64,000 bases of DNA from the IMG/VR virus record IMGVR_UViG_3300027749_000080, positions 20,195 through 84,194 of that record; one strand, 5' to 3'. Source of the stretch: a virus. This document shows positions 1,675 to 43,974 of this stretch, piece by piece. Position 1 is the stretch's first letter, and each line of letters opens with the position of its first letter. The notes under the pieces are model-generated. The model did no database searches. It was not told the origin of the DNA and saw only the letters and a program-made list of their open reading frames with translations. Position numbers and translations under genes: made by a program.

Positions 1675-3555
1675 ATGGCAGGATTATCGCACTTACGAGA
1701 TGTTTATGAAAAACGTGGAAAAGAATTTTTAGAAAATCTTCTTAATAAAACAGTTATCATTAATGAAAAAAATGATGGTGCCTATTTTGGTGCCAAACGG
1801 GATGCAAAACAAAATAACTTTAACTTCTTTAAAAAAGACAGTAAAATTGGTTACATCGACCGAGTTCTTAGTAAGTACTACGAGCCGGGTATTAGACATT
1901 TTGAAAGTATTGGGGGTAATTTAACCTCAATACCTGAAAATTATGTATTTGGAATGGACTACAATCCTTCTAAAGAGGTACCACTAACTCTAAGTCATAT
2001 TAAAGTGCTTGATGAAAATTATCAAACCTCTAAACTTATTCACGATAAAACTGAATTAGATAAATGGGCTGGAGTACTTGGAGTTAACTCACCAACTATT
2101 ATATTTCAAGGAAAATTAAATGATGAGCAAAAGGTAAAAATTCAAGAATTTATATTTACAAACTTGCCAATGCTTGCTGAGAAATTTAAAACTCAATCAT
2201 TTAGCAAACATATCCTATCTGTATTAAATCCAGTAGTTGATGAAAATGCTCAACCTGAATTAAGTGATAGAGAAATTAGTGAAATTGTATTTAGGTTCTT
2301 TGATGAAGAGGATCCAATTGGCGATTCGTCTACTTTAGCAAAGATTATTGATCCAGTATTTTATGATAATGCAAAGAACCTACCTCAGGAAAAGGTTCAA
2401 AAGAAAAGCGATGATTATGTTTGGATCATTGTTACTGACTTAATGAATTTTATTGAAAGTTACCGCATGTCTGATCTTAGAAGTTTTACAATTTCTGGAG
2501 AAACAGCGGATGAGCGATTTATTTCATTAATTAATCACCTTTTTATTGAGTTCATTAAGGAATATGGAGATAAATTTAATGATTTAGAAATTCAAATACC
2601 CCAGTTTTTAACTAGACCTGAATTTGATATTAATCCAGAACTAATCAATGACCCAACTGTAATTGATATACTTAGTAAGAATCCAAACTACAAAGAAATT
2701 TACAGAATATTCATTAATATTTTTAGAAAAAAGAAAATCAAAGTTAATTCAACTCTATTTACTGATGCAATGAAAACTAATTTAATTGATCAAATTGACA
2801 AACTTTCAAAAGTTGCAATGGGTGATCAATTATTTGAAAATTATTTTCCATCATTTAGTGAATTTGTTGGAGACGATAAGGTTCCTGGATATTTTGAAAC
2901 ATATGATGTTGCTGAAAACGAAGAACGTAAAGTAAAAAAAGTTAATCTATTAGTATCGGATTTTCAACCAATACACAAAGGTCATCTTAAAAGTGCAAAA
3001 TTGTTAACTGAAAAAAATGGGCTACCTACTCTATTTGTATGTGTTCACCCTGGCAAATCTGGAAAAATGTTTCCATTTAAGAAAGAAACTTTAACTAATT
3101 CATTAGCTAAATTAGCAGCACATGATAAACAAAATATTGCTGGTCACGTAATGGTGAAAGACGGTAACATTGAAACTATCCTAAAAGCAATAAAACCAGG
3201 CTTTGAGCCTCTTAGCATAGCAGCTGAACCCAGTAGAATAAAAGATCTAGCACTACAATTAGAACTTGCAAAAAAAAGATCTAGAAACTTAAATATTAAA
3301 CGCGAGACTCGATTAATTGAATTACCGGTAACCACAGTTGGTGATTCAATCCTAAAGTCAATTAAAGATCGAGATTTTGCAGCATTTAAAGAAGCATCAC
3401 CATCTCCAATCCATTCAGAATTCTATAACTTAAATAAAGACTTAATTGAATCACTAAATGAAAGTGTAAATGAACAAATAACTGATGCAGTTACTGAAAT
3501 AGTATCAGGCGTAACCTTTGCTACGCCAGAACCAATAATTCAAATAGAATCATGA
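1675..3555 (+). CDS. RNA ligase / nucleotidyltransferase fusion
   Basis: This 626-residue protein appears to join two nucleotidyl-transfer modules. Near the N-terminus 'EKNDGAYFG' gives the K-x-D-G ligase motif I with K32 as the candidate adenylated lysine, followed by ligase-like 'YVFGMDY'. From about residue 423, 'LLVSDFQPIHKGHL' contains the HxGH signature (H434-H437) of cytidylyltransferase-fold enzymes such as NMN adenylyltransferase, and 'PVTTVGDSIL' near 551-560 could be the second substrate motif. The middle, about 150-400, is unrecognised. It ends the HAD-kinase-ligase cassette. Likely roles are RNA repair coupled to nucleotide or NAD metabolism. The two motifs are visible; joint function is inference. 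Confidence 0.7.
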   Translation: MAGLSHLRDVYEKRGKEFLENLLNKTVIINEKNDGAYFGAKRDAKQNNFNFFKKDSKIGYIDRVLSKYYEPGIRHFESIGGNLTSIPENYVFGMDYNPSKEVPLTLSHIKVLDENYQTSKLIHDKTELDKWAGVLGVNSPTIIFQGKLNDEQKVKIQEFIFTNLPMLAEKFKTQSFSKHILSVLNPVVDENAQPELSDREISEIVFRFFDEEDPIGDSSTLAKIIDPVFYDNAKNLPQEKVQKKSDDYVWIIVTDLMNFIESYRMSDLRSFTISGETADERFISLINHLFIEFIKEYGDKFNDLEIQIPQFLTRPEFDINPELINDPTVIDILSKNPNYKEIYRIFINIFRKKKIKVNSTLFTDAMKTNLIDQIDKLSKVAMGDQLFENYFPSFSEFVGDDKVPGYFETYDVAENEERKVKKVNLLVSDFQPIHKGHLKSAKLLTEKNGLPTLFVCVHPGKSGKMFPFKKETLTNSLAKLAAHDKQNIAGHVMVKDGNIETILKAIKPGFEPLSIAAEPSRIKDLALQLELAKKRSRNLNIKRETRLIELPVTTVGDSILKSIKDRDFAAFKEASPSPIHSEFYNLNKDLIESLNESVNEQITDAVTEIVSGVTFATPEPIIQIES

Positions 3556-3635
3556 AAAAACTACTTAATTTTTTAGCAATAATTGAATCATATAGAATTA
3601 ACTGTATGATCCATCAAGGCTGGGGTAAATTATAA
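3552..3635 (+). CDS. 27-aa peptide with head-targeting-like N-terminus
   Basis: This tiny open frame starts by ATGA overlap with the preceding stop (3552-3555) and encodes 27 residues beginning 'MKKLLNFLAIIES'. That opening matches the F-x-x-hydrophobic-x-E pattern of the head-targeting peptides in this window, with I-I-E as a possible prohead-protease site. Its stop lies in the loop of a probable terminator. It may be a real mini-protein packed in the head, the remnant of a larger gene, or chance. The coupled start and the motif favour the first two, but length alone makes it uncertain. Confidence 0.4.
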   Translation: MKKLLNFLAIIESYRINCMIHQGWGKL

Positions 3636-3646
3636 CCGCCTTTTTT
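3616..3646 (+). terminator. Intrinsic terminator
   Basis: AAGGC-t-GG pairs with CCGCCTT (one bulged base, 12-base loop), followed directly by a run of six T. It ends the HAD-kinase-ligase transcription unit and contains the stop codon of the 27-residue peptide in its loop. Confidence 0.6.
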
Positions 3647-3666
3647 ATGTGAGGTAATTTAAAGTA

Positions 3667-5337: not shown

Positions 5338-5520
5338 ATGGAAAAGACGGCTAAAAATATCGATAACTACCGAAAGGGTAAAGAACCTTTAAAAAATGCG
5401 GTTATGCAACATCCAACAGGTAATGACGTATACGATTTTTTACAAAAAAATATTGAGCGTGACTTCTGGGTGACGCCTTTTTCAAAATGGCAAAACTCTC
5501 AAAAATATCATAAAAAGTAA
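5338..5520 (+). CDS. Hypothetical small protein
   Basis: A 60-residue, Lys- and Asn-rich basic protein with no recognised domain. Its ATG is placed immediately after a late-promoter-like element, and its stop overlaps the start of the Dps-like gene (TAATG), so the two are probably translated together. The sequence contains 'PTGNDVYDFLQKNIERDFW', which could form an amphipathic helix. I cannot assign a function; co-transcription with head-type genes suggests a late or virion role. Confidence 0.6.
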   Translation: MEKTAKNIDNYRKGKEPLKNAVMQHPTGNDVYDFLQKNIERDFWVTPFSKWQNSQKYHKK

Positions 5521-5939
5521 TGTTCGGACTAGAAGATTTAACAGAACCTCAAACTGGATCAGAAAATACAATTTCGTATTTTATGTTATCTCTTATGCAG
5601 ATAGCTGATCAAGCTAAAATTATACACTGGCAAACCGGGTATGATACCGAACACCGTCACTTTGGAATGTTTTACGAAACTTTCATTGAGCAAATGGATA
5701 CACTAGTAGAGGCAATTGCTGGTAAATACGGTTCACAACACCTTAAATTTGGAGAAGCGGCAATTATTGTATACGATTATGAACTATCAAGACCTGAATT
5801 TTTTAATCTGGTTCAAGAAGCTCTTCGTGGAACATTTTGCGAAATTTTTGAAAAAGACAAAGACTCTGAATTATATAATTTAGTGGATGAAATTTTAGAC
5901 TTAACAAACAAAACTCAGTATTTACTGCAACAAAAGTAA
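5520..5939 (+). CDS. Dps/ferritin-like protein
   Basis: The 139-residue protein has the ferritin-like Dps pattern: 'KIIHWQTG' followed by 'HFGMFYETFIEQMDTLVEA', matching the Dps ferroxidase region in which an HW helix faces a D-x-x-x-E helix. The length suits a single four-helix bundle. Dps proteins oxidise iron and bind or protect DNA. In a phage the role could be protection from oxidative damage or a scaffold-like use of the fold. It overlaps its upstream neighbour by TAATG and is followed after one base by a head-type gene. The fold is fairly confident; ferroxidase activity is not shown. Confidence 0.7.
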   Translation: MFGLEDLTEPQTGSENTISYFMLSLMQIADQAKIIHWQTGYDTEHRHFGMFYETFIEQMDTLVEAIAGKYGSQHLKFGEAAIIVYDYELSRPEFFNLVQEALRGTFCEIFEKDKDSELYNLVDEILDLTNKTQYLLQQK

Positions 5940-5940: not shown

Positions 5941-7503
5941 ATGTTTCTAAACGTAAAACGATTATCAATATTTGAGAAGCTAATTCTTGAGACTGACCTG
6001 ATTCAAATAGGCTCAGGTATCAATGACCTAGTTACTAAGATTAAAGATTCTAGCAATAATAAAAATCAAGGCTCTGATAAAAAGATTGATATAACTGCTC
6101 AAATTAATCAATTATTAGATTACCTATTTAGCCTGGGCGAAGAAGGTCTTAATGATAAGTTAAGTGAACCTGAATTTATGAAAGTATTTGGAGATCCAGA
6201 AGTAAAAAAAGCACTGGATCTATATTTTGGCTATTTAGAAACTGAATTAAAAACTTTTCGTGAAGAGTTAACGGCTGCGCTTAATGAACCTGAAATTAAT
6301 GTTCAAAAAGTTGAGAAGATAAGTCAAAAAATGATGAGGTTTGCGGCTAGAATTCATGTGGTTGAAAGAATTTATGCAAAGCAATCTGAAGCCGGCCAAT
6401 CAGAATTCAGTAATGAAATTAGTGAAAAGGTCAAAAAGATTCAAGAAGAATTACTTAACATCTATTCATTAAAAGTTATGGTACCTGCTAAAAAAACTCA
6501 GGAATCATATTCAAAATATCAAGCAGCGCAAACTGACGAAGAAAAAACTGAGGCAGCTACTGAAATTTTATCAAATATAGAAGCAGCTGATCAAATGTCA
6601 GAAGATATGCCAGCTGAAGTTATTTCAGGAATTGAAACTGCCAATACTGAATATAAGAATAAGATTGAGAAAGATTTAGGTAAAGAAACCCTAGCTAATA
6701 TATTATCTGGAGTTCATGTAAATAAAAATGTTGCCTCATTAATTCGTAGGATATTTCAATTTCAATATACAATGTGGACTAATGAAGACGATATTAATCG
6801 TGAAGCCAATTCGCTTAAGGTTAGTATTAATGGTTTTCCTGATGTATCAGAAGATGCTAAAGAATATTTGCGTAGACTTGTTGAAAATATCCAGGCTGAC
6901 TTGCTTAAAAAGGCAAAAAGTAAAGACTTTGATACCAAGAAATATAAAGGAATTCATTATGATTTTAATAAGAAATTACCACTATATGAAAGAACTGCAC
7001 TACCTGTTACTGGTAAACAAATAGCAGATGATTCTAAATTAATGAAATTCAGAAAAGCTTCACAAGATCTAATGGATCTTTTCTTTGGTGGAGGTTCTGG
7101 ACCAGGAACTGAAGCAGGTAGAGCATTTGCCGCAACTGGTAAATATTTACATGCAATTTATGCAAAAAGTCTTAATGGTTTAGGTAAGGTAATTGGAAAA
7201 GCAATCGGTGGTAGAGAAGGAGAAATGAAAGCTGATGCTTATACCCGAATGTTTATATTAGATACGTCAGTTGTTGATCAACCAAAACCAAAACAAGTTA
7301 GCGAAGACGGTGGAGTATCTGCGCCAGGAGTAGCTATTCAAACACCTGGTTCAATTGGGTCAATGGGAGCAATTACGCCTCCTACTCAAACCTCACTAGG
7401 TTCGGGAGATAATTTTGGCCCAAAAATTAATAAAAAGAAAACCAAAAAATCTTCATCCATTCTTGGATTTGCGGATTTTATAAAAGAACAAAATAATCTA
7501 TAA
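5941..7503 (+). CDS. Head-type protein with capsid-targeting-like ends
   Basis: A 520-residue protein I do not recognise as a family. Its N-terminus, 'LSIFEKLILETD', fits the head-targeting pattern with I-L-E as a possible protease site, and its C-terminus, 'LGFADFIKEQ', repeats the same pattern. Residues 461-482 match residues 59-80 of the major capsid protein without gaps at 14 of 22 positions, and a 'GSGDNF' at 487-492 parallels 'GSGDKF' there. The body is mostly helical, Lys/Glu-rich and probably partly coiled-coil. I infer a prohead-core or internal head protein; portal or neck function is not supported. It is followed after two bases by another head-type gene. Confidence 0.7.
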   Translation: MFLNVKRLSIFEKLILETDLIQIGSGINDLVTKIKDSSNNKNQGSDKKIDITAQINQLLDYLFSLGEEGLNDKLSEPEFMKVFGDPEVKKALDLYFGYLETELKTFREELTAALNEPEINVQKVEKISQKMMRFAARIHVVERIYAKQSEAGQSEFSNEISEKVKKIQEELLNIYSLKVMVPAKKTQESYSKYQAAQTDEEKTEAATEILSNIEAADQMSEDMPAEVISGIETANTEYKNKIEKDLGKETLANILSGVHVNKNVASLIRRIFQFQYTMWTNEDDINREANSLKVSINGFPDVSEDAKEYLRRLVENIQADLLKKAKSKDFDTKKYKGIHYDFNKKLPLYERTALPVTGKQIADDSKLMKFRKASQDLMDLFFGGGSGPGTEAGRAFAATGKYLHAIYAKSLNGLGKVIGKAIGGREGEMKADAYTRMFILDTSVVDQPKPKQVSEDGGVSAPGVAIQTPGSIGSMGAITPPTQTSLGSGDNFGPKINKKKTKKSSSILGFADFIKEQNNL

Positions 7504-7505: not shown

Positions 7506-7937
7506 ATGAAATTAATTAAAACATTTGAAAATTTTATGCACAGTGAACTAGACACTGAACTAGCTCATCAAGCAAATACATTAGATATTCCACAACACGC
7601 AGCAGGCATGGACCATGAGGCTAATCATGAAGTTGAGAACTATATGTTCTTTGGCAATTTAAAAACAATTCAACGATTAATCGAGATCATGTTGGACATG
7701 GATCCAATGAAGGTTGATCAGTTATTAAAAAATGGTCATAATTGGGCAGAAGATCATGTAACATCGTCAAAGGACGATCTTGAAGAAGTTGCAGATTTCT
7801 TAATGGGAGAAATGACTAATCATGAAGTTCAAGAAGCTAGTGCAATGACCTATTCATGTAATGAATGTGGTACAATGTATGAAGCGCATGAGATTAACGA
7901 AGACCATATGTGTTCGTGTGGTGGTAAAGTAGAATAA
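7506..7937 (+). CDS. Putative internal head protein, zinc-ribbon C-terminus
   Basis: The 143-residue protein starts 'MKLIKTFENFMHSE', matching the F-x-x-F-x-x-E head-targeting pattern, though H-S-E is a weaker protease site than I/L-x-E. The middle is acidic and helical. The C-terminus carries CNEC and CSCGG, a four-cysteine zinc-ribbon or rubredoxin-like knuckle. Zinc ribbons often bind nucleic acid or protein. I infer a packaged protein with a small metal-binding domain. The specific role is unknown. Confidence 0.65.
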   Translation: MKLIKTFENFMHSELDTELAHQANTLDIPQHAAGMDHEANHEVENYMFFGNLKTIQRLIEIMLDMDPMKVDQLLKNGHNWAEDHVTSSKDDLEEVADFLMGEMTNHEVQEASAMTYSCNECGTMYEAHEINEDHMCSCGGKVE

Positions 7938-7951: not shown

Positions 7952-8446
7952 ATGAAAAGCACCTTTGTTAAATCGTTTGGGTTATTTAATGAATCATTAG
8001 AAGACTCAACCTTAAATACAGCAGAATGGTATTATGGAATTGCAGACTGCCATGGATTAGAATCCTTTATTAAGGAGCCTTCATTGACTCATGCAGCAAA
8101 TTTAGATAGATTAAAGCAATTGGGAATTACTGATTTTGGGTCAGAGGCTGATCCTGCAAAAAAAGCGTATGGCGGTAATTTAGCAATGATGCAAATGAGA
8201 TGCAGGTTTAATGGCCAACGCCATCCAGTGGTTTATAGAGCTAAATTATCAGAAGACGATGCTGATATGGTACAGGATCTATTGGATAGTGGTGACTATA
8301 TTAATGCACTTAATGTGGTTAAAGGAAATTCAAAAGAAGTTCAATTAGCTAGAGGTGGAAATGGCTCAGCTGAAAAGGCGTGGAAGATGATTCCAAATCC
8401 AGATTTAGACCCAATGCACAATGATGATAGCTTAGGATATCATTAA
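7952..8446 (+). CDS. Putative internal head protein
   Basis: A 164-residue protein beginning 'MKSTFVKSFGLFNESLED', which resembles the head-targeting peptide (F-x-x-F-N-E) with F-N-E as the potential cleavage site. The rest is a soluble domain I do not recognise, with 'YYGIADCHGLESF' near residue 27 and a C-terminal His/Asp-rich end. A start at 7952 gives a 14-base gap from the upstream gene. Membership in the packaged set rests only on the N-terminus and neighbourhood. Confidence 0.6.
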   Translation: MKSTFVKSFGLFNESLEDSTLNTAEWYYGIADCHGLESFIKEPSLTHAANLDRLKQLGITDFGSEADPAKKAYGGNLAMMQMRCRFNGQRHPVVYRAKLSEDDADMVQDLLDSGDYINALNVVKGNSKEVQLARGGNGSAEKAWKMIPNPDLDPMHNDDSLGYH

Positions 8447-8786: not shown

Positions 8787-9320
8787 ATGAAATCTGGTAT
8801 AAAATTATTTGAAGCATTTTACGGAAAGGACTATTTGGAGCATGAATTTCACAGATATGATAGTGATATTGATTTTTATAAGACGGTTAAAATAAAGACT
8901 GCGGGTAATCCGGATAATTTAAAAAGATTAGCTGAATTAGGAATAACAAAGGATGTTGAAGAAATTGAAGATATTAGTTTTGATACAGTTAGGGTTACAT
9001 ATGAAATGAAACCTTATTTTGATAATGCTGGGATTCATGATATTGACTTTATCCTAAGGACCGTTTATATTTCTGGCGAATATACAATTTGGGATGAAGC
9101 TAAACAGGAAGAAACTCGGTATGATTTTGAAATTGAAGATGCTGGGCCGTTTGACGGTCGAGTTCAGGCAAAATGGGGTAGCTTACCGTTTTATCCAAAA
9201 AATATAGCAATTACTACTCCATGGTCAACTATTAAAAATGGGGTTCAAACTAAACATCCATTTGACCCATCTGCACCAGATGCATCTAAATTTACATATG
9301 AAGTAGAAATTGGTGAATAA
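8787..9320 (+). CDS. Putative internal head protein
   Basis: A 177-residue protein starting 'MKSGIKLFEAFYGKDYLE'. The 'LFEAFYGK' segment partly fits the head-targeting pattern but lacks a clean hydrophobic-x-E site until L-E-H-E. The remainder is acidic and beta-rich, with 'IDFILRTVYISGEYTIWD'. It has no recognised family. It closes the 5.3-9.3 kb cluster and is followed by a strong terminator. Confidence 0.55.
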   Translation: MKSGIKLFEAFYGKDYLEHEFHRYDSDIDFYKTVKIKTAGNPDNLKRLAELGITKDVEEIEDISFDTVRVTYEMKPYFDNAGIHDIDFILRTVYISGEYTIWDEAKQEETRYDFEIEDAGPFDGRVQAKWGSLPFYPKNIAITTPWSTIKNGVQTKHPFDPSAPDASKFTYEVEIGE

Positions 9321-15525: not shown

Positions 15526-16437
15526 TTGTTGAAGAATCATTACCAAACGCTTGGGGTCTCAGAAACCTCAACCCATGACGATATCCGAAAGGCATATCGA
15601 AAACTTGCAACCAAATATCATCCAGATAAAAATGGTGGAAGCTCTGAGGCGGAAGATAAATTCAAAGAAATTGCAGAAGCTTATGAGACCTTAGGTAATG
15701 AAGATAAACGTACAACTTATGATAATTCCAGAAAATTTGGTGATTCACGGAATGCTGATTTTTTTGGTAATTTTGGATCATTTAGAGACTTTTCATTTGG
15801 TGGAAACAGATCACATGATTTTAGAAACTTAACAATAATGGTTGATAAGTGGGCCACTATTAAGGAATTAATGGATGGAGCTGTATTTGATATACAATAT
15901 ATTGTAAATAAAACAATTTCAGGCTCGGCAAAATCTGAAAATAAACAGGTTAGGGTTAAAATTGACTTGGCAAATGAAAGTTATCCAATTTCATTTGATA
16001 ATGGCAGATATTTAATTACTTTAAAAGTTAGAGGCGGTGGCTCAGGTCAAGAAATTGAAGATTTTGACTATTTGGGTAAAAAAAGAAATTCAGTAGTTAC
16101 TGGTGATTTAATAGTTCGTATAAACATTGATATGTTAGGACTTACCCTTGACCAAAGTGATATTATTCAGGACTTTGAGCTAAGTTTACATGATATATTA
16201 TTCACTGAAGAAGTTATCCTGGAAAGCCCAATGGGCAAAAAGTATCGAATTAAATCGTTTAATCGAGATACTCTAAATAATATAACCGTCAAAATACCTA
16301 ATCAAGGCTTGCTCTCTGCATTTGGTCACAAAGGAAGCTATGTGTTTAAGATATTGGTTAAAAAGCCAAATTTTTCAAATATTAGTGAAGAAAACTTACA
16401 AATTTTAAAAGACTTGCTGATTGACGTTAATAAATAA
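15526..16437 (+). CDS. DnaJ-like co-chaperone
   Basis: The 303-residue protein carries a complete J-domain at residues 4-70: '[20 protein letters not shown]' and H32-P-D34, the motif that stimulates Hsp70 ATPase. The zinc-finger region of DnaJ is absent. A short Gly/Phe-rich segment ('[16 protein letters not shown]') leads into a beta-rich client-binding C-terminus, as in type II J-proteins. The start must be TTG at 15526 or 15529, since an in-frame stop lies at 15502 and no ATG intervenes. It sits between the spike and prohead-protease genes, suggesting that it recruits host DnaK for head or tail assembly. No phage DnaK is seen here. Confidence 0.85.
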
Positions 16438-16504: not shown

Positions 16505-18493
16505 TTGACTACTACTAATATTAAAAGTTTAAACCAACCTGCTATCCCAGAGAATTCAGTGTTTATCATTGAGCATCTAAATGAAGCAGTTACGGTAACT
16601 AGAGAAAACAATGATGTTATTCTTGAAGGTACTGCGGCAGTTTTCGGAGTAATGAATGAAAACAATCGTATTTACGAAAAACAAGAATACTTACCTCATT
16701 TAACTTACTTAAATGAGAAGATCAAACAACGCAGACTATTTGGTGAACTTGATCATCCACAAAAATTTGATGTTTCGTTAGCTAATGTATCTCACGTAAT
16801 TGAGGGACTTACTTATGATGAACCAACTAATAGTGTAAAAATTAGACTGCGTTTATTAGATACACCATGCGGTAGAATTGCAAAAACCTTGGTTGAAGCC
16901 GGTTGTACCACTTCAATCTCTTCAAGAGCTGCAGGTAATGTTGCTGAGAATGGAAAGGTTAAATTAGCAAAAATATTCACATACGATTTGGTTGCAGAAC
17001 CTGGTTTTGCACAAGCTGCGCTTGGCCAAGTATCTGAAAGTTTGCAAAATAACTATTCTGCAATATTTGAATCACTAGATTCATTAAGAACTACTGCAAT
17101 CACTACCAAGTTAACAGATATTTCTGAAAACTTTGGTTTTGAGGATTCTGTGAAGATTTACAGAATAAATAATCAAGAAATACCAACTAAACAAAATAAT
17201 ACACAGCAAATGGCTAATGAGTTTGTAACAAAAGAAGAGATGAATCAGTATTCTGAACTGGTTAAAAAGAAATTTTCTTCTCTACAAGAGAATATCTCTA
17301 AAAACAATAAAGGTCTTCAAAAGATCAGCGAAAATGCAACCGAAGGAGAATCTCCAGTTGTTGCTAAAATGGTAGAATACGTTAACTACTTAGCTGGCGA
17401 AATGGAGCAGTTAGTTGAATACTCTAACTATCTTTCAACAATGTTAAATCAAGGTATTAATTACACTGAGCACGTTGCAGAGAAAGTTAATACTGTAATC
17501 GATTATTCTGATTACTTAGCAGAAAAAGTAGAAAAGAATATTCAATACTCTGACTATTTAGGAGAGAAAGTTAATCAAAATATTAACTATTCTGAATATA
17601 TTGCAGAAAACGTAGAAAAAACAGTTGAATACGCTAACTACATTGCAGAAAACGTAGATAAAGGCATTCAATACACTGAATACGTTGCTGAAAGCGCAGA
17701 AAAAGGAATTCAATTTTCAAATTACCTAGCTGAGAATTTAGATGCAGCAATTAAATACTCTAATTATCTTGGAGAAAACCTTGATCAAGGTATTAAATAT
17801 TCAGAATATATTGCTGAATCATTAAATGAAAAAATCACTCCTTCAGCTTTAACTAAAACTCGTTCTTTACTTGGAGAAGTTAAAAAATTAAACGAAGGTG
17901 TAGAATTTGAAGTTAATGAAACTTCTTCAGTTGATGATCTAGTTGGAGCAGTTGATGGAATCTTAACTCACATTAAATCAAATTCAGCTAAAGCTGTTTT
18001 GGAAAACAAATATCCATTCCTAAAATTGTTAAACGAAGGTCGTAAGCAAGCATTCTATAATTTAGATCAAGCTACTAAATCTGCAATTGTTGAAACAATG
18101 CAAGGAGCTATTTACTTTAACGAAGGTGAAGTAGTTAATATTATGGAAGCAGTTCTTAACAAGCAAGTTGAAAACACTCCTAATTATATTAAACTTATGC
18201 CAGCTGCATACAAGCAATTATTTGAAGGTATGACTGATGGAGAGAAAAATTGGATGGCTTCTCAAGCTAATAACTTCACTCTAAATACTTCATATCAAGT
18301 TAAGTCTTTCTGGGATTCTCGCGATTTCAGAGGAATTAATGAAAGAATTGCAACTGAAACAATTATAAATAATAATTCTATTAACGAAAACCAAGGTAAA
18401 GAAGGTTACGTATCGTTAAACCAAATAAACGAAAGTCTACGTGGTTATTCTAATAACTACATGGACGCTCTTAAAAGAAGAGCACAAAATTAA
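16505..18493 (+). CDS. 21: Prohead protease fused to repeat-rich scaffold
   Basis: Residues 1-180 match the gp21 (S77) prohead protease: 'LEGTAAVFGVMNENNRIY', 'RRLFGELDHP' with H84, 'TSISSRA' with S139/S140, and 'YDLVAEPGF' with a candidate Asp. Position and spacing match the T4 catalytic residues. The remaining 480 residues look like prohead core scaffold: residues 291-444 are 11 tandem 14-residue repeats of the type 'YSDYLAEKVEKNI', compatible with a long coiled coil. T4 encodes protease and scaffold (gp22) separately. Residue 236 is a Met ('MANEFVTKEEM', 17210) that could start a free scaffold. The TTG start follows a late promoter by 18 bases. The major capsid protein is next. Confidence 0.85.
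   Translation: MTTTNIKSLNQPAIPENSVFIIEHLNEAVTVTRENNDVILEGTAAVFGVMNENNRIYEKQEYLPHLTYLNEKIKQRRLFGELDHPQKFDVSLANVSHVIEGLTYDEPTNSVKIRLRLLDTPCGRIAKTLVEAGCTTSISSRAAGNVAENGKVKLAKIFTYDLVAEPGFAQAALGQVSESLQNNYSAIFESLDSLRTTAITTKLTDISENFGFEDSVKIYRINNQEIPTKQNNTQQMANEFVTKEEMNQYSELVKKKFSSLQENISKNNKGLQKISENATEGESPVVAKMVEYVNYLAGEMEQLVEYSNYLSTMLNQGINYTEHVAEKVNTVIDYSDYLAEKVEKNIQYSDYLGEKVNQNINYSEYIAENVEKTVEYANYIAENVDKGIQYTEYVAESAEKGIQFSNYLAENLDAAIKYSNYLGENLDQGIKYSEYIAESLNEKITPSALTKTRSLLGEVKKLNEGVEFEVNETSSVDDLVGAVDGILTHIKSNSAKAVLENKYPFLKLLNEGRKQAFYNLDQATKSAIVETMQGAIYFNEGEVVNIMEAVLNKQVENTPNYIKLMPAAYKQLFEGMTDGEKNWMASQANNFTLNTSYQVKSFWDSRDFRGINERIATETIINNNSINENQGKEGYVSLNQINESLRGYSNNYMDALKRRAQN
17375..17836 (+). repeat. 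11 tandem 14-residue coiled-coil repeats
   Basis: Within the scaffold region, 11 consecutive ungapped 14-residue units each follow Y-x-x-Y-(L/I/V)-(A/G)-E-x-(V/L)-x-x-x-(I/V)-x, which is two heptads per unit. The DNA copies have diverged, so selection acts on the protein pattern and there is no sign of recent duplication. Confidence 0.85.
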
Positions 18494-18511: not shown

Positions 18512-20233
18512 ATGGCAACAAAAATTTTCAAAAAATTGAACGACGCTTCAATTAAGGAAACTTGGACCCCAGTTTTAGAAGGTTATGGTGCAAACGTTAC
18601 AGCTCGCCCTTGGTTAGTTGACTACGCTCACAATCATGCTATCTTCGATAACGCAGGTTCAATTAATGAATCAAACTCAGGAGTAGCTCCAGGTTTATTC
18701 TTACAACAACCTGGTTCTATCAGTTCTATTGGTGCAATTAGTTCTCCAACGAGTTCTATGACTCCATTCACTGGTGGTGCTAAAAACGGTTACGGTGCTT
18801 CTGTATCTGGTTCTGGTGATAAATTCCCAAGCCTTTTACCAGTTGCAATCCAAGTAGCTGCTAAAACTATTGGTTTCGACCTAGTTGGTGTAGTTCCTAT
18901 GGATTCTCCAGTAGGTTTCCTACCTTACTTGGATTATGTATACCAAGGTGGTAACATCGACAAGCAATACGAACCATATTTGATCAAGATCACTGGTGCA
19001 TTGGAAAATGCTGCAGGTTCTACAGTAAATGGTATCGCAAATGGTTCTAAATTCACAGTAGCAACTCTTCCATTCGCTGAAGGTTCTAACTACGGTGTTA
19101 ACGAAAGCAACACTGACCTAGTTCTACAATTCGTTGGTAAATCACGTGTTGATGGTTCTCCAATCTTCAAAGTTATCCTATCTCATGATGGTGGTACTCT
19201 TGCTGATTACTTTGCAGCTGACGTTGATATTCAACCAGCAAATGCAACTGACGTTTCAGGTACTGCGGTAGTAACTTTCCGTACAGCTGATAACAAAGTT
19301 GAATTAGTTTCTGCTTTAGAAAACCATATTTCTGGTTTTACTTCAGTATCTGACGCTGATTACGCTACATCTGATTTCAATGGTCCTTACATGGGATCTA
19401 CTGGATCTCAAATGGAAGGTATGGCTCGTCAAACAGCTGAATCTTCTAAATTCCGTCAAATGGGTCTTCGTATGTTCACTAAGTTCATCGAAGCAAAAGG
19501 AGATCAAGTTTCTATTTCAGCAACTGTTGAACAAATCCAAGATCTTAACCGAGTTTGGAACTTTGACGTAATCTCTATGTTAGAGAACGTAGCAGTTAAC
19601 GAATTAGCTCAATCAATCAACAAAAAGTTAGTTGACCGTGTTCTTAATTTAGGATCAGTTCATGCTACTGCTGTTGAAGGTGTTGAAGGTGCAGGTATCA
19701 CTACTTTGGACCTAACTGTTGGAACAACTGGATTTGAGAACATCTCAACTCTACAACGTCGTGTTGTAACTAAAATTCTTGAAATGGCTAACTTGATTTA
19801 TCATAGAGGTCGTTTCGGTGCAGGTACATACATCGTTACTAACGGTCGTGTTGCTTCTGCTTTAGCAGATGTAGCTGGTTACTCTTTCGCTCCATTCAAT
19901 AATGATCTTCCATCTACTGCTGGTCAATTGTACCCTGCAGGTAAAGTACATGGTTTAACCATCTACGTTGATCCTAACTTGAAATTCAGCGATAACCGTA
20001 TCCATATCGGTCGTAAAGGCGCTGATGAAGAGCCAGGTGTTAAATTCCTTCCATATATCATGGCAGAGAGTCTTCAAACAATTGCAGAGGGAACTTTCTC
20101 TCCGAAAATTGGTATGAAATCTCGTTATGCTATTACCGAAGCTGGATGGCACCCAGAAACTCAATACATTACTTTGGCTGTAACAGGTCTAGGAGTATTG
20201 ACTGGTTCAACTCGCCCTGCTTCTTCTTACTAA
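18512..20233 (+). CDS. 23: Major capsid protein, gp23-like
   Basis: The 573-residue protein follows the protease-scaffold gene, the standard head order. It has the gp23-family segment 'DLVGVVPMDSPVGFLPYLDY' and HK97-type downstream features such as 'YHRGRFGAGTYIVTNGRV'. T4 gp23 loses an N-terminal peptide to gp21; here 'SINE|SN' at residues 50-55 and 'PVLE|GY' at 20-25 fit the hydrophobic-x-E rule. Residues 59-80 match a segment of the 520-residue head-type protein at 5941. Codon use differs from neighbours: many more C-ending codons (ttc, aac, tac), as expected of the most highly expressed gene. A strong terminator follows. Confidence 0.9.
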   Translation: MATKIFKKLNDASIKETWTPVLEGYGANVTARPWLVDYAHNHAIFDNAGSINESNSGVAPGLFLQQPGSISSIGAISSPTSSMTPFTGGAKNGYGASVSGSGDKFPSLLPVAIQVAAKTIGFDLVGVVPMDSPVGFLPYLDYVYQGGNIDKQYEPYLIKITGALENAAGSTVNGIANGSKFTVATLPFAEGSNYGVNESNTDLVLQFVGKSRVDGSPIFKVILSHDGGTLADYFAADVDIQPANATDVSGTAVVTFRTADNKVELVSALENHISGFTSVSDADYATSDFNGPYMGSTGSQMEGMARQTAESSKFRQMGLRMFTKFIEAKGDQVSISATVEQIQDLNRVWNFDVISMLENVAVNELAQSINKKLVDRVLNLGSVHATAVEGVEGAGITTLDLTVGTTGFENISTLQRRVVTKILEMANLIYHRGRFGAGTYIVTNGRVASALADVAGYSFAPFNNDLPSTAGQLYPAGKVHGLTIYVDPNLKFSDNRIHIGRKGADEEPGVKFLPYIMAESLQTIAEGTFSPKIGMKSRYAITEAGWHPETQYITLAVTGLGVLTGSTRPASSY

Positions 20234-20351: not shown

Positions 20352-20717
20352 ATGAGCAATTCTGTTTTAAACTACTCACAATTTCTTTTAGAAAAGAAAG
20401 CAATCAACCAAGAAATGGCTGAATTACCTAAAGGTAAAGATTCAAAATCTAACACTACTGTAAAACCAGCAATGTCTGAACTTCCAAAAGGTAAAGGTAA
20501 AGGTATTAGCAAATCAGTAAAACCTGAAATGGCTACTCTTCCTAAAGGAAAAGGTAAAATGATTGGCAAATCAGTAGATACGAAAGTTTCTAAATTACCT
20601 ACAACTAAAGGTTCTTCACCTAAAAAATCAGTAGACTCTAAAATGTCTAAATTGGTAATTAAAGGTAAAGCTATCAGTAAGAAAGTTGAGCCTAATATGG
20701 CTAAAATGCCTAAGTAA
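20352..20717 (+). CDS. Lys-rich repeat internal head protein
   Basis: The 121-residue protein begins 'MSNSVLNYSQFLLEKKA', a near-ideal head-targeting peptide with L-L-E as the predicted prohead-protease site after residue 14. Residues 21-114 are five tandem units of 19,19,19,19 and 18 residues ('EMAELPKGK', 'AMSELPKGK', 'EMATLPKGK' and so on), with a partial sixth to the end. The repeats are strongly basic and low-complexity, like histone tails, so DNA binding inside the capsid is likely. T4 internal proteins are also small, basic and cleaved this way. It has its own late promoter just after the capsid terminator, which fits high late expression. Confidence 0.75.
   Translation: MSNSVLNYSQFLLEKKAINQEMAELPKGKDSKSNTTVKPAMSELPKGKGKGISKSVKPEMATLPKGKGKMIGKSVDTKVSKLPTTKGSSPKKSVDSKMSKLVIKGKAISKKVEPNMAKMPK
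20412..20714 (+). repeat. Five-and-a-half 19-residue basic repeats
   Basis: Tandem units with the core M-(A/S)-(E/T/K)-L-P-K-G-K, then a Lys/Ser linker ending near S-V-K-P. The period is 57 bases, except for one 54-base unit. It lies inside the Lys-rich head protein. Confidence 0.8.
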
Positions 20718-20736: not shown

Positions 20737-21042
20737 ATGTCAGATCAAAGAAAACATAAGGTCACGTCCTTTCAGTCGTTCGTTATTCAAGAAAATTCAA
20801 TCAAGGATTTAGTTGGAAAAACTGATGATGAGCAATTGGACTTAGATGATGCTCGTAGTATCGGAAAGAAGATTTCCAAAATGAAAGGTGAAGATCGTAA
20901 GAAATACGTTGGGATTGTTAATTTCATGGGAGCGTCTTGTAGAATTTACAATGAGATTTGGGCTAACTATAAACCAGTTGATCCATCAACCAAAAAATCA
21001 AACCGTGGAAAAGAATTCCAAGGTGAAAAAGAAGTAGGTTAA
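20737..21042 (+). CDS. Putative internal head protein
   Basis: A 101-residue basic protein starting 'MSDQRKHKVTSFQSFVIQEN', which contains the head-targeting pattern at residues 11-19 with I-Q-E as an excellent protease site. After cleavage about 80 residues remain, mostly helical and Lys-rich ('SIGKKISKMKGEDRKKYVGI'). No family is recognised. It lies 19 bases after the Lys-rich repeat gene and is probably co-transcribed with it. A DNA-associated packaged protein is the best guess. Confidence 0.65.
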   Translation: MSDQRKHKVTSFQSFVIQENSIKDLVGKTDDEQLDLDDARSIGKKISKMKGEDRKKYVGIVNFMGASCRIYNEIWANYKPVDPSTKKSNRGKEFQGEKEVG

Positions 21043-22688: not shown

Positions 22689-23336
22689 ATGGACATATTT
22701 AATGTAAAACGCCGAGACAATCCTTCAATGGATAATTATATGGACCTAAAGAAACCAGGTTTCGGTGGTCCAAATTCAAAGGAAGACTTTGATAAATCAA
22801 AAAGAAAATCGCTTGAAGGATACCAACGAGTAGTTGACAGAAATGCCGATTTTGAAGGTGGAAATTTCAATCATAATTATGATCCAACGTGGAAAGCAGT
22901 AACCCGCGACCTAATTTCAAGAACTGCAAAGAAAAAACCATTTAATCCAATGTACGCAAAACAAACAATTGCAACAGTTAATGCTGTTGAAGAAGGTACT
23001 ATCAAACGCTTTGAACAATTCGTTAATGAAAACGAAGGTTTTAATATGTTTGCTGAAGCTGAAGACGAAACTCCAGAAATGGAAGAAACTACTCCAGAAA
23101 TGGAAGAAGTTGAAGTAGATCAAGAACAAGTAGAAATGCTAATGGCAGACTTCGGAGATGATCTTGAAGAAATGATTGATGAAATCGCTGAAAAAATGGA
23201 ACTTGAAAAAGAAGAAGTTTGCGATATTCTATGTGCAGCTATTAAAAAGATGTGCGCTCCTGCTGAAGAAGAGGAAGAAGAAGAAGAAAATCCAGAAGGT
23301 GAAGAACCTACTGAAGAAGAAGAAACCGAAGAATAA
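22689..23336 (+). CDS. Acidic prohead core-like protein with internal targeting motif
   Basis: The 215-residue protein has a basic N-terminal half (1-95) and an extremely acidic C-terminal half with runs of Glu. Between them, residues 104-116 read 'TIKRFEQFVNENE', the same pattern that forms the N-terminal head-targeting peptide elsewhere, here internal. Cleavage at V-N-E would separate the two halves. T4 prohead core proteins gp67/gp68 are likewise small, charged and cleaved. I infer a prohead core component. The duplicated 'TPEMEE' and Glu runs are low-complexity. Confidence 0.6.
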   Translation: MDIFNVKRRDNPSMDNYMDLKKPGFGGPNSKEDFDKSKRKSLEGYQRVVDRNADFEGGNFNHNYDPTWKAVTRDLISRTAKKKPFNPMYAKQTIATVNAVEEGTIKRFEQFVNENEGFNMFAEAEDETPEMEETTPEMEEVEVDQEQVEMLMADFGDDLEEMIDEIAEKMELEKEEVCDILCAAIKKMCAPAEEEEEEEENPEGEEPTEEEETEE

Positions 23337-23339: not shown

Positions 23340-23693
23340 ATGAAGCTGATTAAATTATTTGAACAATGGGTTTCTGAAGAAGACTCTAATGTAGATTCTC
23401 CTAAAGTTGAGGATATTGAAAATCCTGTTGAGTCATATACTCTTATGTTATCAACTAATGAATTTGGAGATTTTGAAGTTACTGCAATTATTGATCCAGA
23501 CTTTACAACTGACTCAACTAAAGCGTTTAAGGTAATTAGTTCAAATAATTCAAATATTGAATTAGGATCAACCATTATGGTTTCATCAACGGTTGACAAG
23601 AATTATGATTCTGATATTGTTATAATAAATGACAAAAATAAACCAGAAGAGTCATTAATTTATTCAGGAAAAATTAAAATTGACAAATCCTAA
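23340..23693 (+). CDS. Putative internal head protein
   Basis: A 117-residue acidic protein starting 'MKLIKLFEQWVSEED', which fits the head-targeting pattern (F-x-x-W-V-S-E). The rest is predicted beta-rich and has no recognised family. It follows the acidic core-like gene after three bases and ends the plus-strand head cluster just before a bidirectional terminator. Confidence 0.6.
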   Translation: MKLIKLFEQWVSEEDSNVDSPKVEDIENPVESYTLMLSTNEFGDFEVTAIIDPDFTTDSTKAFKVISSNNSNIELGSTIMVSSTVDKNYDSDIVIINDKNKPEESLIYSGKIKIDKS

Positions 23694-38970: not shown

Positions 38971-39543
38971 TTAGTCTTCAATTTCCATAATACTTTCAAG
39001 AACTCGAATAGAGTCAGTTGAGTCATTATGCAAAATACCGGTTCCACCGGCATCAGTCCATTTATTTAGCTTAGTATCAAAATCGTCAATTAGGATATCA
39101 AATTCATTTCGGGCATATTTCCATTTGTCTTGATCTAAAATAATTCTGGTTTTACTTGTAAAATCTTCAGGTTTAGTAACAGGCTCTTCATCAATGTGAA
39201 GGTGTAGTTTAATCCATTTTGTTTTACCAGCTAAACATTCAGGGCTTCTGCTTGGAGCAGATAGAATAATTGGATCATACTGTTTTAAATAGTCCCATAA
39301 TTCTCTACCATCTTGTGTCCAAGGTAAATCTGCCCAAAAATCTTCTCCTAATTTATCCAGGATTGGCCAAATCGAATTTTTACCATGAAGTTCTTCGTAT
39401 GCATGCGGAGAAAGTTTTTCAGGATTTTCTGAAATTTCAGTAAAGCCACGATTAAAGTCTACTAGGACCCCGTCTAAATCACAGAAAATTGTGTATTTTC
39501 CGCCTCTTTTTTCAAAGACAAATTGTTTAAATTTTTTAAGCAT
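38971..39543 (-). CDS. HAD nucleotidase-like with head-targeting N-terminus
   Basis: The ATG at 39543 (8-base overlap with the GroES-like stop) is preferred over an upstream TTG at 39558. The 190-residue protein starts 'MLKKFKQFVFEKRGG', a clear head-targeting peptide with V-F-E as a potential protease site, and runs straight into 'FCDLDGVLVDF', the D-x-D HAD nucleophile motif typical of 5'(3')-deoxyribonucleotidases. Later 'IILSAPS' and 'ILIDDF' provide motifs II and IV. It may be a nucleotidase delivered with the DNA. A minus-strand TAATAAATAAA inside the upstream gene could be its late promoter. Confidence 0.75.
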   Translation of the reverse strand: MLKKFKQFVFEKRGGKYTIFCDLDGVLVDFNRGFTEISENPEKLSPHAYEELHGKNSIWPILDKLGEDFWADLPWTQDGRELWDYLKQYDPIILSAPSRSPECLAGKTKWIKLHLHIDEEPVTKPEDFTSKTRIILDQDKWKYARNEFDILIDDFDTKLNKWTDAGGTGILHNDSTDSIRVLESIMEIED

Positions 39544-39868
39544 TTTCTTTAAGTTCAAATTGTGTATCTTGATCTTTATTTATTATGGCTAAAAGATCGT
39601 TAGCTATTACCAAATGATATCCGATACCATCCCAAGTTACATCAAGGCCTGAATATCTTTGATATAAAACTTTATCTCCAGCTTTAACTGGACATTTTGA
39701 ATTATCTGGAACTGAGTGGCCAACTGCAATTACGGTTCCTGTATTTGGGCGCTTGCGTGCATCAACTGATAAAATAATACCAGTTTCGGTTTTTGTCTCT
39801 ACTGTATCTGGTAAAACCAGCAGTCTTTCAAATAGTGGCATAAAGCCTTTTGTTATATCAACACTCAT
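39536..39868 (-). CDS. groS: GroES-like co-chaperonin
   Basis: The 110-residue protein follows GroES: 'PLFERLLVLPDTVETKTETG' (first strand and mobile-loop region), 'GTVIAVGHSVPD', 'VKAGDKVLYQRYSGLDV' and C-terminal 'ANDLLAIIN'. GroES is about 97 residues and forms a seven-fold lid for GroEL. T4 uses gp31 with host GroEL to fold gp23. Here a phage GroEL is also encoded (52411-53991), so the two may form a phage-specific chaperonin. It overlaps RNase H by TAATG. Confidence 0.88.
   Translation of the reverse strand: MSVDITKGFMPLFERLLVLPDTVETKTETGIILSVDARKRPNTGTVIAVGHSVPDNSKCPVKAGDKVLYQRYSGLDVTWDGIGYHLVIANDLLAIINKDQDTQFELKENA
39575..39585 (-). promoter_or_regulatory. Possible late promoter inside groS
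   Basis: Minus-strand TAATAAATAAA lies within the GroES-like coding sequence about 32 bases upstream of the HAD nucleotidase ATG. It may separate late expression of that head-type gene from the earlier replication operon. Coding constraint (Asn-Lys) could also explain it. Confidence 0.3.
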
Positions 39869-41265: not shown

Positions 41266-41283
41266 TTTGTAGTTTAATTATTT

Positions 41284-42330
41284 TTATAAAGATGCAAATA
41301 AATCGTCTAAGTCATCTGCCTTTGGGGCAGCTGTTTTAGGTTTAACTTCAGGCGCTGGAGCAGAAATTTCAAAGTCATCATCTAAATTAATTGATGAGCT
41401 TACATTTTTTACTGCTGGCGCTGGAGTGAATTCAATATCTTCACCAAGTGGTGCTTGTGTTCTAGCAACCGGCGCAGATAATTTAAAGTGTTTCTTCATT
41501 CTTTCATCTTTAGTGTTTGCAACTAAATTGTCAATGATTTGTTTGTAAGGAACAATTGCTTTAATATAGTCTGCAACTTTTTCGTATTCAACATCAGTCC
41601 ATTCCTTTAAGAAATATTGACTCATATCTGGCGAATTCTTTTTAAAGTATTCGCTTACAAATTGCATAACCTTAGGCTCAGTAGAAACTGGAATTTCTTT
41701 ACCTTGAGTTGAGATAATTAATGGGCTAACTTCATTCATGAATTTACTAGCACTAAAATCTCTCCATGCTTTAGTCTTACGCTTAATAACCAAAACAAAA
41801 TCCTTACCTGTAGTAAGTGAGAATGGATTAATTTTTTGAGTAGTAACTAATTCTTGTTCAGGATTAATTTCTTGTTGGATTAAGTTGTCAATTGTATATC
41901 CATAAGAATATATTTTGATTTTACCTTCCATTGTAGGAAATTGTGGATCCTTCTTGATGTAAACGCAAGAATAGTAATTGTAATAACGATTAAAATACTT
42001 TTGAATCTCTTCAACAATTGAAGGCTCTTCATTTTTTAATCTCTTTAATTCAAGATCAAGCGTCCAAAGAATTGATGATGCTCCTGTCGTTGATGGACAA
42101 TCTACATACAACTTTTCGTTGGTTAAAGGGTTAGTTAATTTAGCTGCATATTTTTTGTAGCGGCTCTTAGTTGGATCGGTTACCCAAGGGATAAAACGAA
42201 TAACTGATTTGTAAATACCGTTTTGACCTTGGTCTGGACCGGGATTGTACACATTGTCGTCGACTTTGCGACCTGCTGCTGATGATTTACCTGAGAAATC
42301 ATCGAGATTAAGATTGAATAGATCTTCCAT
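41284..42330 (-). CDS. 32: Single-stranded DNA-binding protein, gp32-like
   Basis: The 348-residue protein resembles T4 gp32 (301). The core has 'KSVIRFIPWVTDPTKSRYKK', 'YYNYYSCVYIKKDPQFPTME' and 'EGKIKIYSYGYTI', aromatic- and Lys-rich as in the DNA-binding cleft. The C-terminal tail is acidic and ends 'DDLDDLFASL', the part that recruits partner proteins. T4 gp32 binds zinc through three Cys and one His; here only one Cys lies in the equivalent stretch ('YVDCPSTTG'), so zinc appears lost. It coats single strands for replication and recombination. Confidence 0.85.
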   Translation of the reverse strand: MEDLFNLNLDDFSGKSSAAGRKVDDNVYNPGPDQGQNGIYKSVIRFIPWVTDPTKSRYKKYAAKLTNPLTNEKLYVDCPSTTGASSILWTLDLELKRLKNEEPSIVEEIQKYFNRYYNYYSCVYIKKDPQFPTMEGKIKIYSYGYTIDNLIQQEINPEQELVTTQKINPFSLTTGKDFVLVIKRKTKAWRDFSASKFMNEVSPLIISTQGKEIPVSTEPKVMQFVSEYFKKNSPDMSQYFLKEWTDVEYEKVADYIKAIVPYKQIIDNLVANTKDERMKKHFKLSAPVARTQAPLGEDIEFTPAPAVKNVSSSINLDDDFEISAPAPEVKPKTAAPKADDLDDLFASL

Positions 42331-42389
42331 ATTGTTTATAATGTTTAATAATTTAATAGAATTGTACTAAATAAATGTGAAGAGTTTTG

Positions 42390-42422
42390 AAAAAAAAAGG
42401 ACGAGTTGTAAAACCCGTCCTT
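42390..42422 (-). terminator. Intrinsic terminator after histone-like gene
   Basis: On the minus strand AAGGACG pairs with CGTCCTT, followed by a run of T. It ends the histone H1-like transcript 25 bases after its stop and separates it from gp32. Confidence 0.75.
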
Positions 42423-42446
42423 AAATGTGAACTTTTAGTCTAAAAA

Positions 42447-42638
42447 TTAGGCTTTAGTATCAACTTTAGATTCCTGAACGTGAGTTCGGCCTTCTTGACA
42501 AAGTGCTTTAATGTCTTGAAGAACTTTACGAGTTCTAGTTCCAGCTGATTTATTTCCTTTTTCGTAGAATTTTCCAGCTTCTGCTTCTAATTGAGAAACT
42601 TGTTCCTTTAGCGATGTTAACCATGTAGGTGTTGTCAT
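42447..42638 (-). CDS. Histone H1-like (Hc1-type) DNA-binding protein
   Basis: The 63-residue basic protein matches the Hc1-type 'histone H1-like' family common in Bacteroidota: 'LKEQVSQLEAEAGKFYEKGN' is followed by 'KSAGTRTRKVLQDIKALCQE', with the family's invariant-looking G-N-K-x-A-G-T-R-x-R-K core. These proteins bind DNA and help to organise the nucleoid. It is a monocistronic unit with its own terminator, between gp32 and two head-type genes. It may compact phage DNA or disturb the host nucleoid. It is a strong pointer to the host group and to gene exchange with it. Confidence 0.8.
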   Translation of the reverse strand: MTTPTWLTSLKEQVSQLEAEAGKFYEKGNKSAGTRTRKVLQDIKALCQEGRTHVQESKVDTKA

Positions 42639-42691
42639 AATTTCAAATATTTTTTTATCTTATATTTGAGAAATCCACCCGGTTTTAAATA

Positions 42692-43417
42692 TTAGTGATA
42701 TTTGTTTAAAAATTTAGCTGCTGGGTATACTTTTTTAGCAAAAGTTATCCAAGTTGACATAACTTTATCAGCTTCAGGTTGAGAAATTAACTTGGTCTCA
42801 ATAAAAGGTTTTAAGTATTCTTCAAATTCCTGATCAAGAGGTACTCTTTTCTTTTTAGCTGATGCATACATACCTGCAACCATTGCTGGAATTTCATCAG
42901 CTAATAAAAAGTAATGATAATCACTTTCAGCACGAGATCTTACTGATTTTGTGGTATTAATAATATGGCCAGTCTTTTTATTTATGCCTTTTTGTAAAAG
43001 GTGTTCAAGTTCATGTCGTATATTATCAATTAATTTATAATTTAATGCTGGATAACATTGAGGTTCCGCATCTGGACTAATATAAAGGACTACTTCAATT
43101 TCAGGCGACTCCGGCTCGTTTGCCTTTGGAATAAATGAATTTGCATCTATTGCAAACCCTTTATTTTCAAAATTAATTACTTCCCAAGGAAGTCCACTAA
43201 AATATTTAGATTTAGCCGGCTCAAATTCTTCAACTCTAACTAACTTAATTGATAGTGTAAATTCAAGTGGGGTATCATATTCAAATTCTTTGGATATTTC
43301 TTTACCTATCTTAACACCTGCAGTTTTCTTAATTACGCTAAATAGATCTTTAGCGAAAGTTGAAGCAAGTGAATCGTATTTTGATTCAAATATAAATTGT
43401 GAAAACCTTTTTATCAT
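42692..43417 (-). CDS. Putative packaged zinc metalloprotease
   Basis: The 241-residue protein opens 'MIKRFSQFIFESKYD', an almost perfect match to the T4-type head-targeting peptide with I-F-E as protease site. Further on 'NIRHELEHLLQKG' gives the HExxH zinc-binding motif (H135-E-x-x-H139) in a helix, and 'LLADEIPAMVAGMY' downstream could supply the third ligand. The combination predicts a zinc peptidase carried in the head and perhaps delivered into the host. It overlaps the upstream head-type gene by ATGA and shares its late promoter. The target is unknown. Confidence 0.7.
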   Translation of the reverse strand: MIKRFSQFIFESKYDSLASTFAKDLFSVIKKTAGVKIGKEISKEFEYDTPLEFTLSIKLVRVEEFEPAKSKYFSGLPWEVINFENKGFAIDANSFIPKANEPESPEIEVVLYISPDAEPQCYPALNYKLIDNIRHELEHLLQKGINKKTGHIINTTKSVRSRAESDYHYFLLADEIPAMVAGMYASAKKKRVPLDQEFEEYLKPFIETKLISQPEADKVMSTWITFAKKVYPAAKFLNKYH

Positions 43418-43974
43418 TTTTTAGGTTTAATAAAATTTACTTCTAATTGATTGGTCGAAGGAGATAGTTTAGCATCAAAATCTATATCAATATCACCCTT
43501 ATCAATACCTAGTTTTTTAGCAGCCATTGCGGATTTTAATTTGTCATAGATTTCTTTATCTAAAAATCCTTTACCTCTAAGGGCATCAACAATTTCAACT
43601 TTCTTTGAGTCTAGTTGATTATCAGTTATCCACTTATCTAAATCAACTTGTTTAACTTGATATTCTTTATATCTTTTAACTCCGCCGCCTCCAGTATATT
43701 GAGAATGCCATTTCTTATCAGCATCAATTAACACTAGATTAATATCGCCAGTTTGACCAGCGGTTGGAGCTGGTGCATTTGGGTCTGGCGGTAATTCAGC
43801 AGTTGCAAATGGATCAGTTGAAGGTGCATCAATTGGACTTGCTGGAGCTGGTGAATTTTCAGCAGGCGCTGAAGCAGTCTCAGTAGGAGAAGGTGGCTCA
43901 ACTGGTGGTGGAGTAGCCGCAGGTTCATCTGCTTCTAGTAATAACTTAAATTGTCTAAAGTCTAGGATTTCCAT
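43414..43974 (-). CDS. Pro-rich putative internal head protein
   Basis: The 186-residue protein begins 'MEILDFRQFKLLLEADEP', a head-targeting peptide with L-L-E as the predicted cleavage site. Residues 17-75 are a Pro/Ala/Ser-rich linker, probably disordered. The C-terminal domain (about 80-186) is mixed, with 'INLVLIDADKKWHSQY' and a Lys/Asp-rich end. It is transcribed from a late promoter placed between it and nrdJ and is coupled to the metalloprotease gene. It could be a partner, chaperone or inhibitor of that protease. Confidence 0.65.
   Translation of the reverse strand: MEILDFRQFKLLLEADEPAATPPPVEPPSPTETASAPAENSPAPASPIDAPSTDPFATAELPPDPNAPAPTAGQTGDINLVLIDADKKWHSQYTGGGGVKRYKEYQVKQVDLDKWITDNQLDSKKVEIVDALRGKGFLDKEIYDKLKSAMAAKKLGIDKGDIDIDFDAKLSPSTNQLEVNFIKPKK

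Follow-up and report, generated by a model that had tools for sequence, protein, structure and literature searches.

The locus considered here, a 64,000-base window of viral DNA (bases 20195-84194 of the 84,194-base IMG/VR record IMGVR_UViG_3300027749_000080), raises the question of why genes scattered over both strands, and encoding unrelated proteins, should begin with a closely similar short peptide. An initial annotation had listed eleven such genes in the window and had proposed that the peptide is a modular delivery address, comparable to that of the internal proteins of bacteriophage T4, carried by a varied packaged cargo. Genes were called with our own script in this record and seven related ones (eight genomes in all) and then compared, and the shared N-terminal peptide is very probably a T4-type capsid-targeting sequence, which would direct both the packaging and the processing of the proteins that bear it. 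Coordinates below are those of the window unless the record is named.

Correspondence with the T4 capsid-targeting sequence

The capsid-targeting sequence of the T4 internal proteins IPI, IPII and IPIII is credited to Mullaney and Black (1996) in PMC9026906, which also reports that mutagenesis of the ten-residue tag of IPIII assigned targeting mainly to residues 4 and 7, and processing to residues 8 and 10. The conserved positions of the peptide described here (aromatic-x-x-aromatic-hydrophobic-x-E) are the same four positions. For a count of cargo families the first 22 residues of the proteins were removed; the eight genomes then contain 62 independent families with a strongly tagged member. 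The two targeting positions are aromatic, F/Y in 60 of the 62 and F/W/Y in 60 of the 62, and the processing site carries I, L or V in 57 and E in 50, the last two figures having to be read with the fact that the profile itself selects the hydrophobic and glutamate positions. The residue that follows the glutamate (P1') lies outside the profile; among 50 independent families, 41 have S, N, A or G there, against a background of 23% (p 3e-18), and positions beyond P1' display no comparable enrichment. Such a preference for a small P1' residue is expected of a cleavage site.

The correspondence was also observed in the opposite direction, starting from T4. A profile of the clade that was blind to T4 placed gp61.1, ipII, ipIII and ipI ahead of all other T4 genes (269 in total), and the strictest (held-out) profile, trained only on proteins of families absent from this record, with the closest relatives excluded, still retrieves ipII, ipIII and gp61.1. 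The enzyme and the structural protein that bear on processing are both encoded in the window:

16505-18493, plus strand: gp21-like prohead protease (residues 30-274; phrog_207, head maturation protease, E 1.5e-35)
18512-20233, plus strand: gp23-like major capsid protein (phrog_138, major head protein)

The protease, whose presence had been stated initially and is borne out by the phrog_207 match, is the predicted processing enzyme for the tags, and its length and position suggest that a scaffold region is probably fused to it. The last three residues of the capsid propeptide are INE (residues 51-53, bases 18662-18670); in the relatives examined, I/L/V/M-x-E (INE, LNE, LFE, VFE or the like) stands immediately ahead of the mature arm at the end of the capsid propeptide, and the T4 gp23 cut site is FGSFLTE. 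In two structure models the tag is of low confidence, in contrast to a mostly well-predicted cargo. The combination of a gp21-family protease, a site shared with the capsid protein and unrelated cargo fits a T4-type capsid-targeting sequence, and the reading first proposed was upheld by each sequence test applied, including those of the positions mapped in T4, the recovery of T4 genes and the P1' preference.

Several observations weigh against that reading. Twelve of the 62 tagged families lack the glutamate; the clade profile gives T4 Alt no high rank; several members in the window are recognised through their orthologues; cell-wall hydrolases, found among the cargo of relatives, would be unexpected as injected proteins; and one relative, G003 (capsid 60% identical, 29% guanine plus cytosine (GC)), has almost no tagged genes, indicating that the expansion of tags is not universal among relatives. 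To our knowledge, moreover, the T4 capsid-targeting sequence has been demonstrated experimentally only for IPIII. The capsid protein of G003 keeps an LNE site.

The peptide might instead be a sorting or binding signal for the tail, a membrane or a host protease that merely resembles the T4 tag, and carriers such as lysozyme, CHAP and VanY proteins would be compatible with an address in the tail or at a membrane; chance, however, would then have to supply the four residues mapped in T4, the P1' rule and the match to the capsid site, and convergence of this kind is considered very improbable.

Enrichment and controls

The window is AT-rich, and AT-rich genes yield F, K, I, N and E at their N-termini, such that chance composition might generate a pattern of this type; two of the genes initially listed (3552 and the N-terminus of 5941) are indeed chance cases. 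The pattern [FY]xx[FWYL]-hydrophobic-x-E was counted within the first residues of each protein, with expectations drawn from internal protein positions, and was found 7 times in the whole record against 1.4 expected, and 21, 23, 15 and 14 times in four larger relatives against 2.2-3.7 expected. In the whole-record control, the spacings FxxxF and FxF and the reversed motif displayed no enrichment, and shuffled N-termini yielded 0.7 matches against the 7 observed. The pattern is strongest in genomes of 38-41% GC, and codons vary at the conserved tag positions, which indicates that selection acts on the peptide and rules out a nucleotide-level signal.

A position-specific profile identified 158 N-terminal matches against 15.3 expected, with the consensus K-[KSR]-F-x-[QE]-F-[ILV]-N-E. 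The held-out profile, applied to the whole record in the type of scan that the initial annotation had suggested, identified 5 strong matches against 0.05 expected (p 2.7e-9), located at record 17338 and at window 20352, 23340, 38971-39543 and 42692-43417. That annotation had also named an equal frequency of the pattern in unrelated early genes as a refuting result, and this did not materialise: profile scans found no strong tag in the replication block (23.7-35.7 kb) or in the block at 44-54.8 kb. The spacing, reversal and shuffle controls, the GC trend, the P1' rule and the held-out profile together refute the compositional explanation, to which a negligible probability is assigned.

Tagged genes of the record

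The tagged genes, beginning with the one that lies upstream of the window, are as follows:

Record 17338-18102: tagged gene, MKLQRFQQFINEAR, individually significant with the held-out profile
7506-7937, plus strand: protein with a C-terminal zinc ribbon; tag-like MKLIKTFENFMHSE at 7506-7547, score 13.4
7952-8446, plus strand: 164-residue protein; short-form tag MKSTFVKSFGLFNE (FxxFNES) at 7952-7993, weak alone
8787-9320, plus strand: 177-residue protein; degenerate tag-like N-terminus MKSGIKLFEAF, weak in the window copy
20352-20717, plus strand: Lys-rich repeat protein; tag MSNSVLNYSQFLLE at 20352-20393, held-out score 14.8
20737-21042, plus strand: small conserved protein adjoining the capsid gene; variant tag ending SFQSFVIQE at 20737-20793
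22689-23336, plus strand: acidic prohead-core-like protein; internal tag KRFEQFVNE at 23004-23030, motif score 25.3
23340-23693, plus strand: 117-residue protein; tag MKLIKLFEQWVSE at 23340-23378, held-out score 21.6, present in 4 of 4 orthologues
38971-39543, minus strand: HAD-fold 5'-3' deoxyribonucleotidase (phrog_2643, E 2.9e-23); tag MLKKFKQFVFE at 39511-39543, held-out score 18.0
42692-43417, minus strand: HExxH protein, putative metalloprotease; tag MIKRFSQFIFE at 43385-43417, held-out score 20.1
43414-43974, minus strand: protein with a Pro-rich linker; variant tag MEILDFRQFKLLLE at 43933-43974, profile score 9.9, p ~0.003

Four of the genes initially described as clear cases, those starting at 20352 and 23340 and, on the minus strand, at 39543 and 43417, are individually significant with the held-out profile. 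The tag of the first is present in 6 of 7 orthologues as called. Orthologues of the deoxyribonucleotidase keep its tag; its homologues in Agrobacterium phage Atu_ph07 and Caulobacter phage Cr30 start directly at the enzyme, without a tag, which indicates that the tag is an added module. In the HExxH protein the tag residues F5, F8, I9 and E11, the HExxH motif and a downstream glutamate (E175), such as a zincin metalloprotease would need as a ligand, are all invariant in 9 orthologues; a fold search with its model (mean predicted local distance difference test score 76.6) returned no significant match. The HExxH and deoxynucleotidase genes are also neighbours in Flavobacterium phage immuto (L285, 108416-111895), where the HExxH domain makes up the C-terminal portion of a long protein that carries the annotation NadR and is preceded by an internal SFSDFIESDD stretch.

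Two other supposedly clear cases are not individually significant with the held-out profile, and support for them comes from orthologues with cleaner tags: the tag at 20737 has a one-residue insertion and orthologues that read SFKDFVTNE and RFEQYALLE, and the tag at 43974 (FRQFKLLLE) has a two-residue insertion and a G005 orthologue that reads YSDFLFE. Orthologues likewise provide the support for genes initially ranked as weaker: those of 7506 keep the FExF targeting half and keep the glutamate poorly, those of 7952, which read MKYANSFKSFNES, have cleaner tags, and two more cleanly tagged orthologues of 8787 (TFKGFVINES and SFKSYLITES) lend it weak support. The N-termini read as originally described and most of the listed genes hold, with two of the eleven withdrawn: 3552, an open reading frame of 27 codons, was not accepted as a gene by the caller, and the start of the 5941 product, formerly considered a clear case, has no aromatic pair (profile p ~0.11). 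Two additional N-termini were rejected as tags, that of 1675 (glutamate not at the right place, whole start conserved) and that of 13551 (no glutamate, motif missing from some orthologues).

One carrier had escaped the initial list. The internal tag of the 22689-23336 protein, KRFEQFVNE followed by NEG, is kept in 8 of 8 orthologues, and the acidic C-terminus of that protein, as in T4 gp67, suggests a role in the prohead core. The original observation understates the phenomenon.

Scale and diversity of the cargo

Genomes of at least 176 kb contain 11-27 strongly tagged genes each, and at a looser threshold these large genomes contain 18-34, against 0.6-1.0 expected. Counts at the looser threshold elsewhere are 3 in T4, 4 in KVP40, 1 in phiAS5, 1 in HTVC008M, 0 in immuto, 3 in PAU, 1 in PTm1 and 2 in Lak-A1, with the clade profile undercounting phages whose tags have diverged. 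Recognisable cargo in the window comprises the deoxyribonucleotidase and the HExxH protein; in relatives it includes phage lysozyme, CHAP, VanY, a peptidoglycan-binding domain, NUDIX, a nucleotidyltransferase, a MoxR-type ATPase and a 2H phosphoesterase. An annexin-like reading of one cargo, suggested by GTDE repeats, was abandoned, since Pfam gives phage lysozyme instead. For the tagged cell-wall hydrolases, a role in the entry of DNA is conceivable, as is a role in lysis, where the tag would be unexpected. The initial claim that the downstream domains differ is extended by the 62 unrelated families, and the tag is in all likelihood a general loading label in this clade, placed on dozens of unrelated proteins rather than on a few internal proteins.

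The tagged putative 2H phosphoesterase, found in relatives and outside the window, resembles T4 Acb1 (57B), a 2H phosphodiesterase that counters the cyclic-oligonucleotide-based antiphage signalling system (CBASS). Similar to Acb1, it possesses two HxT motifs (invariant in 17 homologues), a match to phrog_755 (E 2.3e-10) that is common to T4 57B, and a 2H fold match, the best such matches being a poxvirus cyclic GMP-AMP phosphodiesterase and Acb1 itself. Unlike Acb1, it bears a head tag, and it has no significant sequence match to solved Acb1 (E 0.66 against Acb1 in the PDB; 25.0 bits against Pfam Acb1, where the cut-off is 27). Genes for 2H proteins occur at L265-L270, L273, L275 and L281; several are tagged, others are untagged, and some lie inside proteins of 1000-2000 residues.

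Copies of the capsid arm

An additional link to the head is found in the gene whose N-terminus was withdrawn above:

5941-7503, plus strand: head-associated protein, 520 residues; C-terminal capsid-arm copy and tag-like GFADFIKEQ (FADFIKE at 7468-7488)

Its C-terminus consists of an arm copy, APGVAIQTPGSIGSMGAITPPT (capsid, APGLFLQQPGSISSIGAISSPT), followed by a lysine-rich stretch and then by the tag-like segment. The similarity to the arm has a z of 8.5 against shuffles, and the family is the best non-capsid arm match in 7 of 7 genomes tested. Among T4 proteins other than gp23, the uncharacterised gp61.1 (NC_000866, 18966-19130) correspondingly gives the best match to the gp23 cut site and arm, with a z of 12.8 relative to shuffled sequences, and a Lys/Glu tail follows its arm copy. 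Each combines a tag-like segment, a copy of the mature capsid arm and a lysine-rich stretch, although gp61.1 has 54 residues with its tag first, and the 5941 product has its tag-like segment last. The two proteins may act inside the head as partners of the shell. No report of such arm copies or of such a role was found in the literature searched, and gp61.1, although T4 is the phage that has been studied best, is put forward as a candidate internal head protein that has been overlooked and that copies the cut site and arm of the capsid protein.

Proposed mechanism and delivery

By analogy with T4, the two aromatic residues would dock a tagged protein onto the prohead scaffold core during head assembly, and the gp21-type protease would then cut after hydrophobic-x-E, a step backed by the small P1' residue and by the occurrence of this site in the capsid protein as well. 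Once released, the tagged protein would stay in the head with the DNA and, as described for T4 internal proteins, would be ejected into the next host on infection. Packaging and injection are thus both predicted, and a function of the cargo in the next host is less certain than its packaging and processing.

The tag could alternatively recruit head-building parts to the prohead core, where they would be consumed or kept in the head rather than delivered. Core-like carriers, namely the acidic 22689 protein with its internal tag, the Lys-rich 20352 protein, whose gene adjoins that of the capsid protein, and the 5941 product with its capsid-arm copy, are consistent with such a role; however, most tagged families occur in only one or two of the eight genomes, unlike essential head parts, many carriers are enzymes (NUDIX, deoxynucleotidase, 2H phosphoesterase, MoxR ATPase), and T4 can dispense with its internal proteins, which bear this tag and are injected (PMC12373910). 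A role in assembly only is accordingly judged unlikely.

If delivery is the role of the tag, phages of this clade would probably inject an unusually large protein arsenal with their DNA. A further proposal is put forward tentatively, at somewhat less than an even chance: that the T4 head tag has become a means of general delivery, of the order of 20 proteins per virion, including an anti-CBASS-type cyclic-nucleotide phosphodiesterase, nucleotide-pool enzymes, a metalloprotease and cell-wall hydrolases, such that counter-defence and host takeover would start ahead of phage gene expression. Dozens of unannotated proteins of uncultured phages become, from sequence alone, candidate injected effectors; the clade profile is applicable to other T4-type phages, and the analysis points to counter-defence proteins delivered along with DNA.

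Genomic setting

A search of IMG/VR with the capsid protein led to 80 related loci being kept, at 52-100% identity. The closest capsid match in a named phage (37%) is to an uncultured phage, and identities of ~27-36% to Lak, Tenacibaculum, Flavobacterium and similar phages suggest a Bacteroidota host; megablast of the window DNA against named phages gave no match. A gp20-like portal is encoded upstream of the window. Other genes of the window include a Dps-like protein and, as read from their sequences, a J-domain protein and what are apparently both chaperonins:

5520-5939: Dps-like protein (phrog_858), possibly DNA-protecting or iron-binding, just upstream of head-protein genes
15526-16437: J-domain DnaJ-like protein, directly preceding the prohead protease gene
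39536-39868: GroES-like chaperonin, adjoining the tagged deoxynucleotidase gene
52411-53991: GroEL-like chaperonin

Comparison with known systems

The tags described here resemble those of T4 IPI, IPII and IPIII in their aromatic-x-x-aromatic-hydrophobic-x-E arrangement near the protein start, in the accompanying gp21-type protease and in the diversity of the proteins behind them. They differ from the T4 case in number (11-27 strongly tagged genes per large clade genome, against 3-4 in T4), in a consensus that prefers F over Y at the first aromatic position and N before the glutamate, and in a cargo that contains many enzymes, accompanied by internal and inserted variants of the tag. In the giant phages SPN3US and phiKZ, the N-terminal propeptides of many head proteins are cut after glutamate and the proteins are ejected into the host (PMC5694885); those propeptides mostly exceed 100 residues, whereas those of this clade span ~10-19 residues, as in T4. 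The proposed mechanism is of a kind known from T4, and what is new in this clade is an unusually rich case of tag use.

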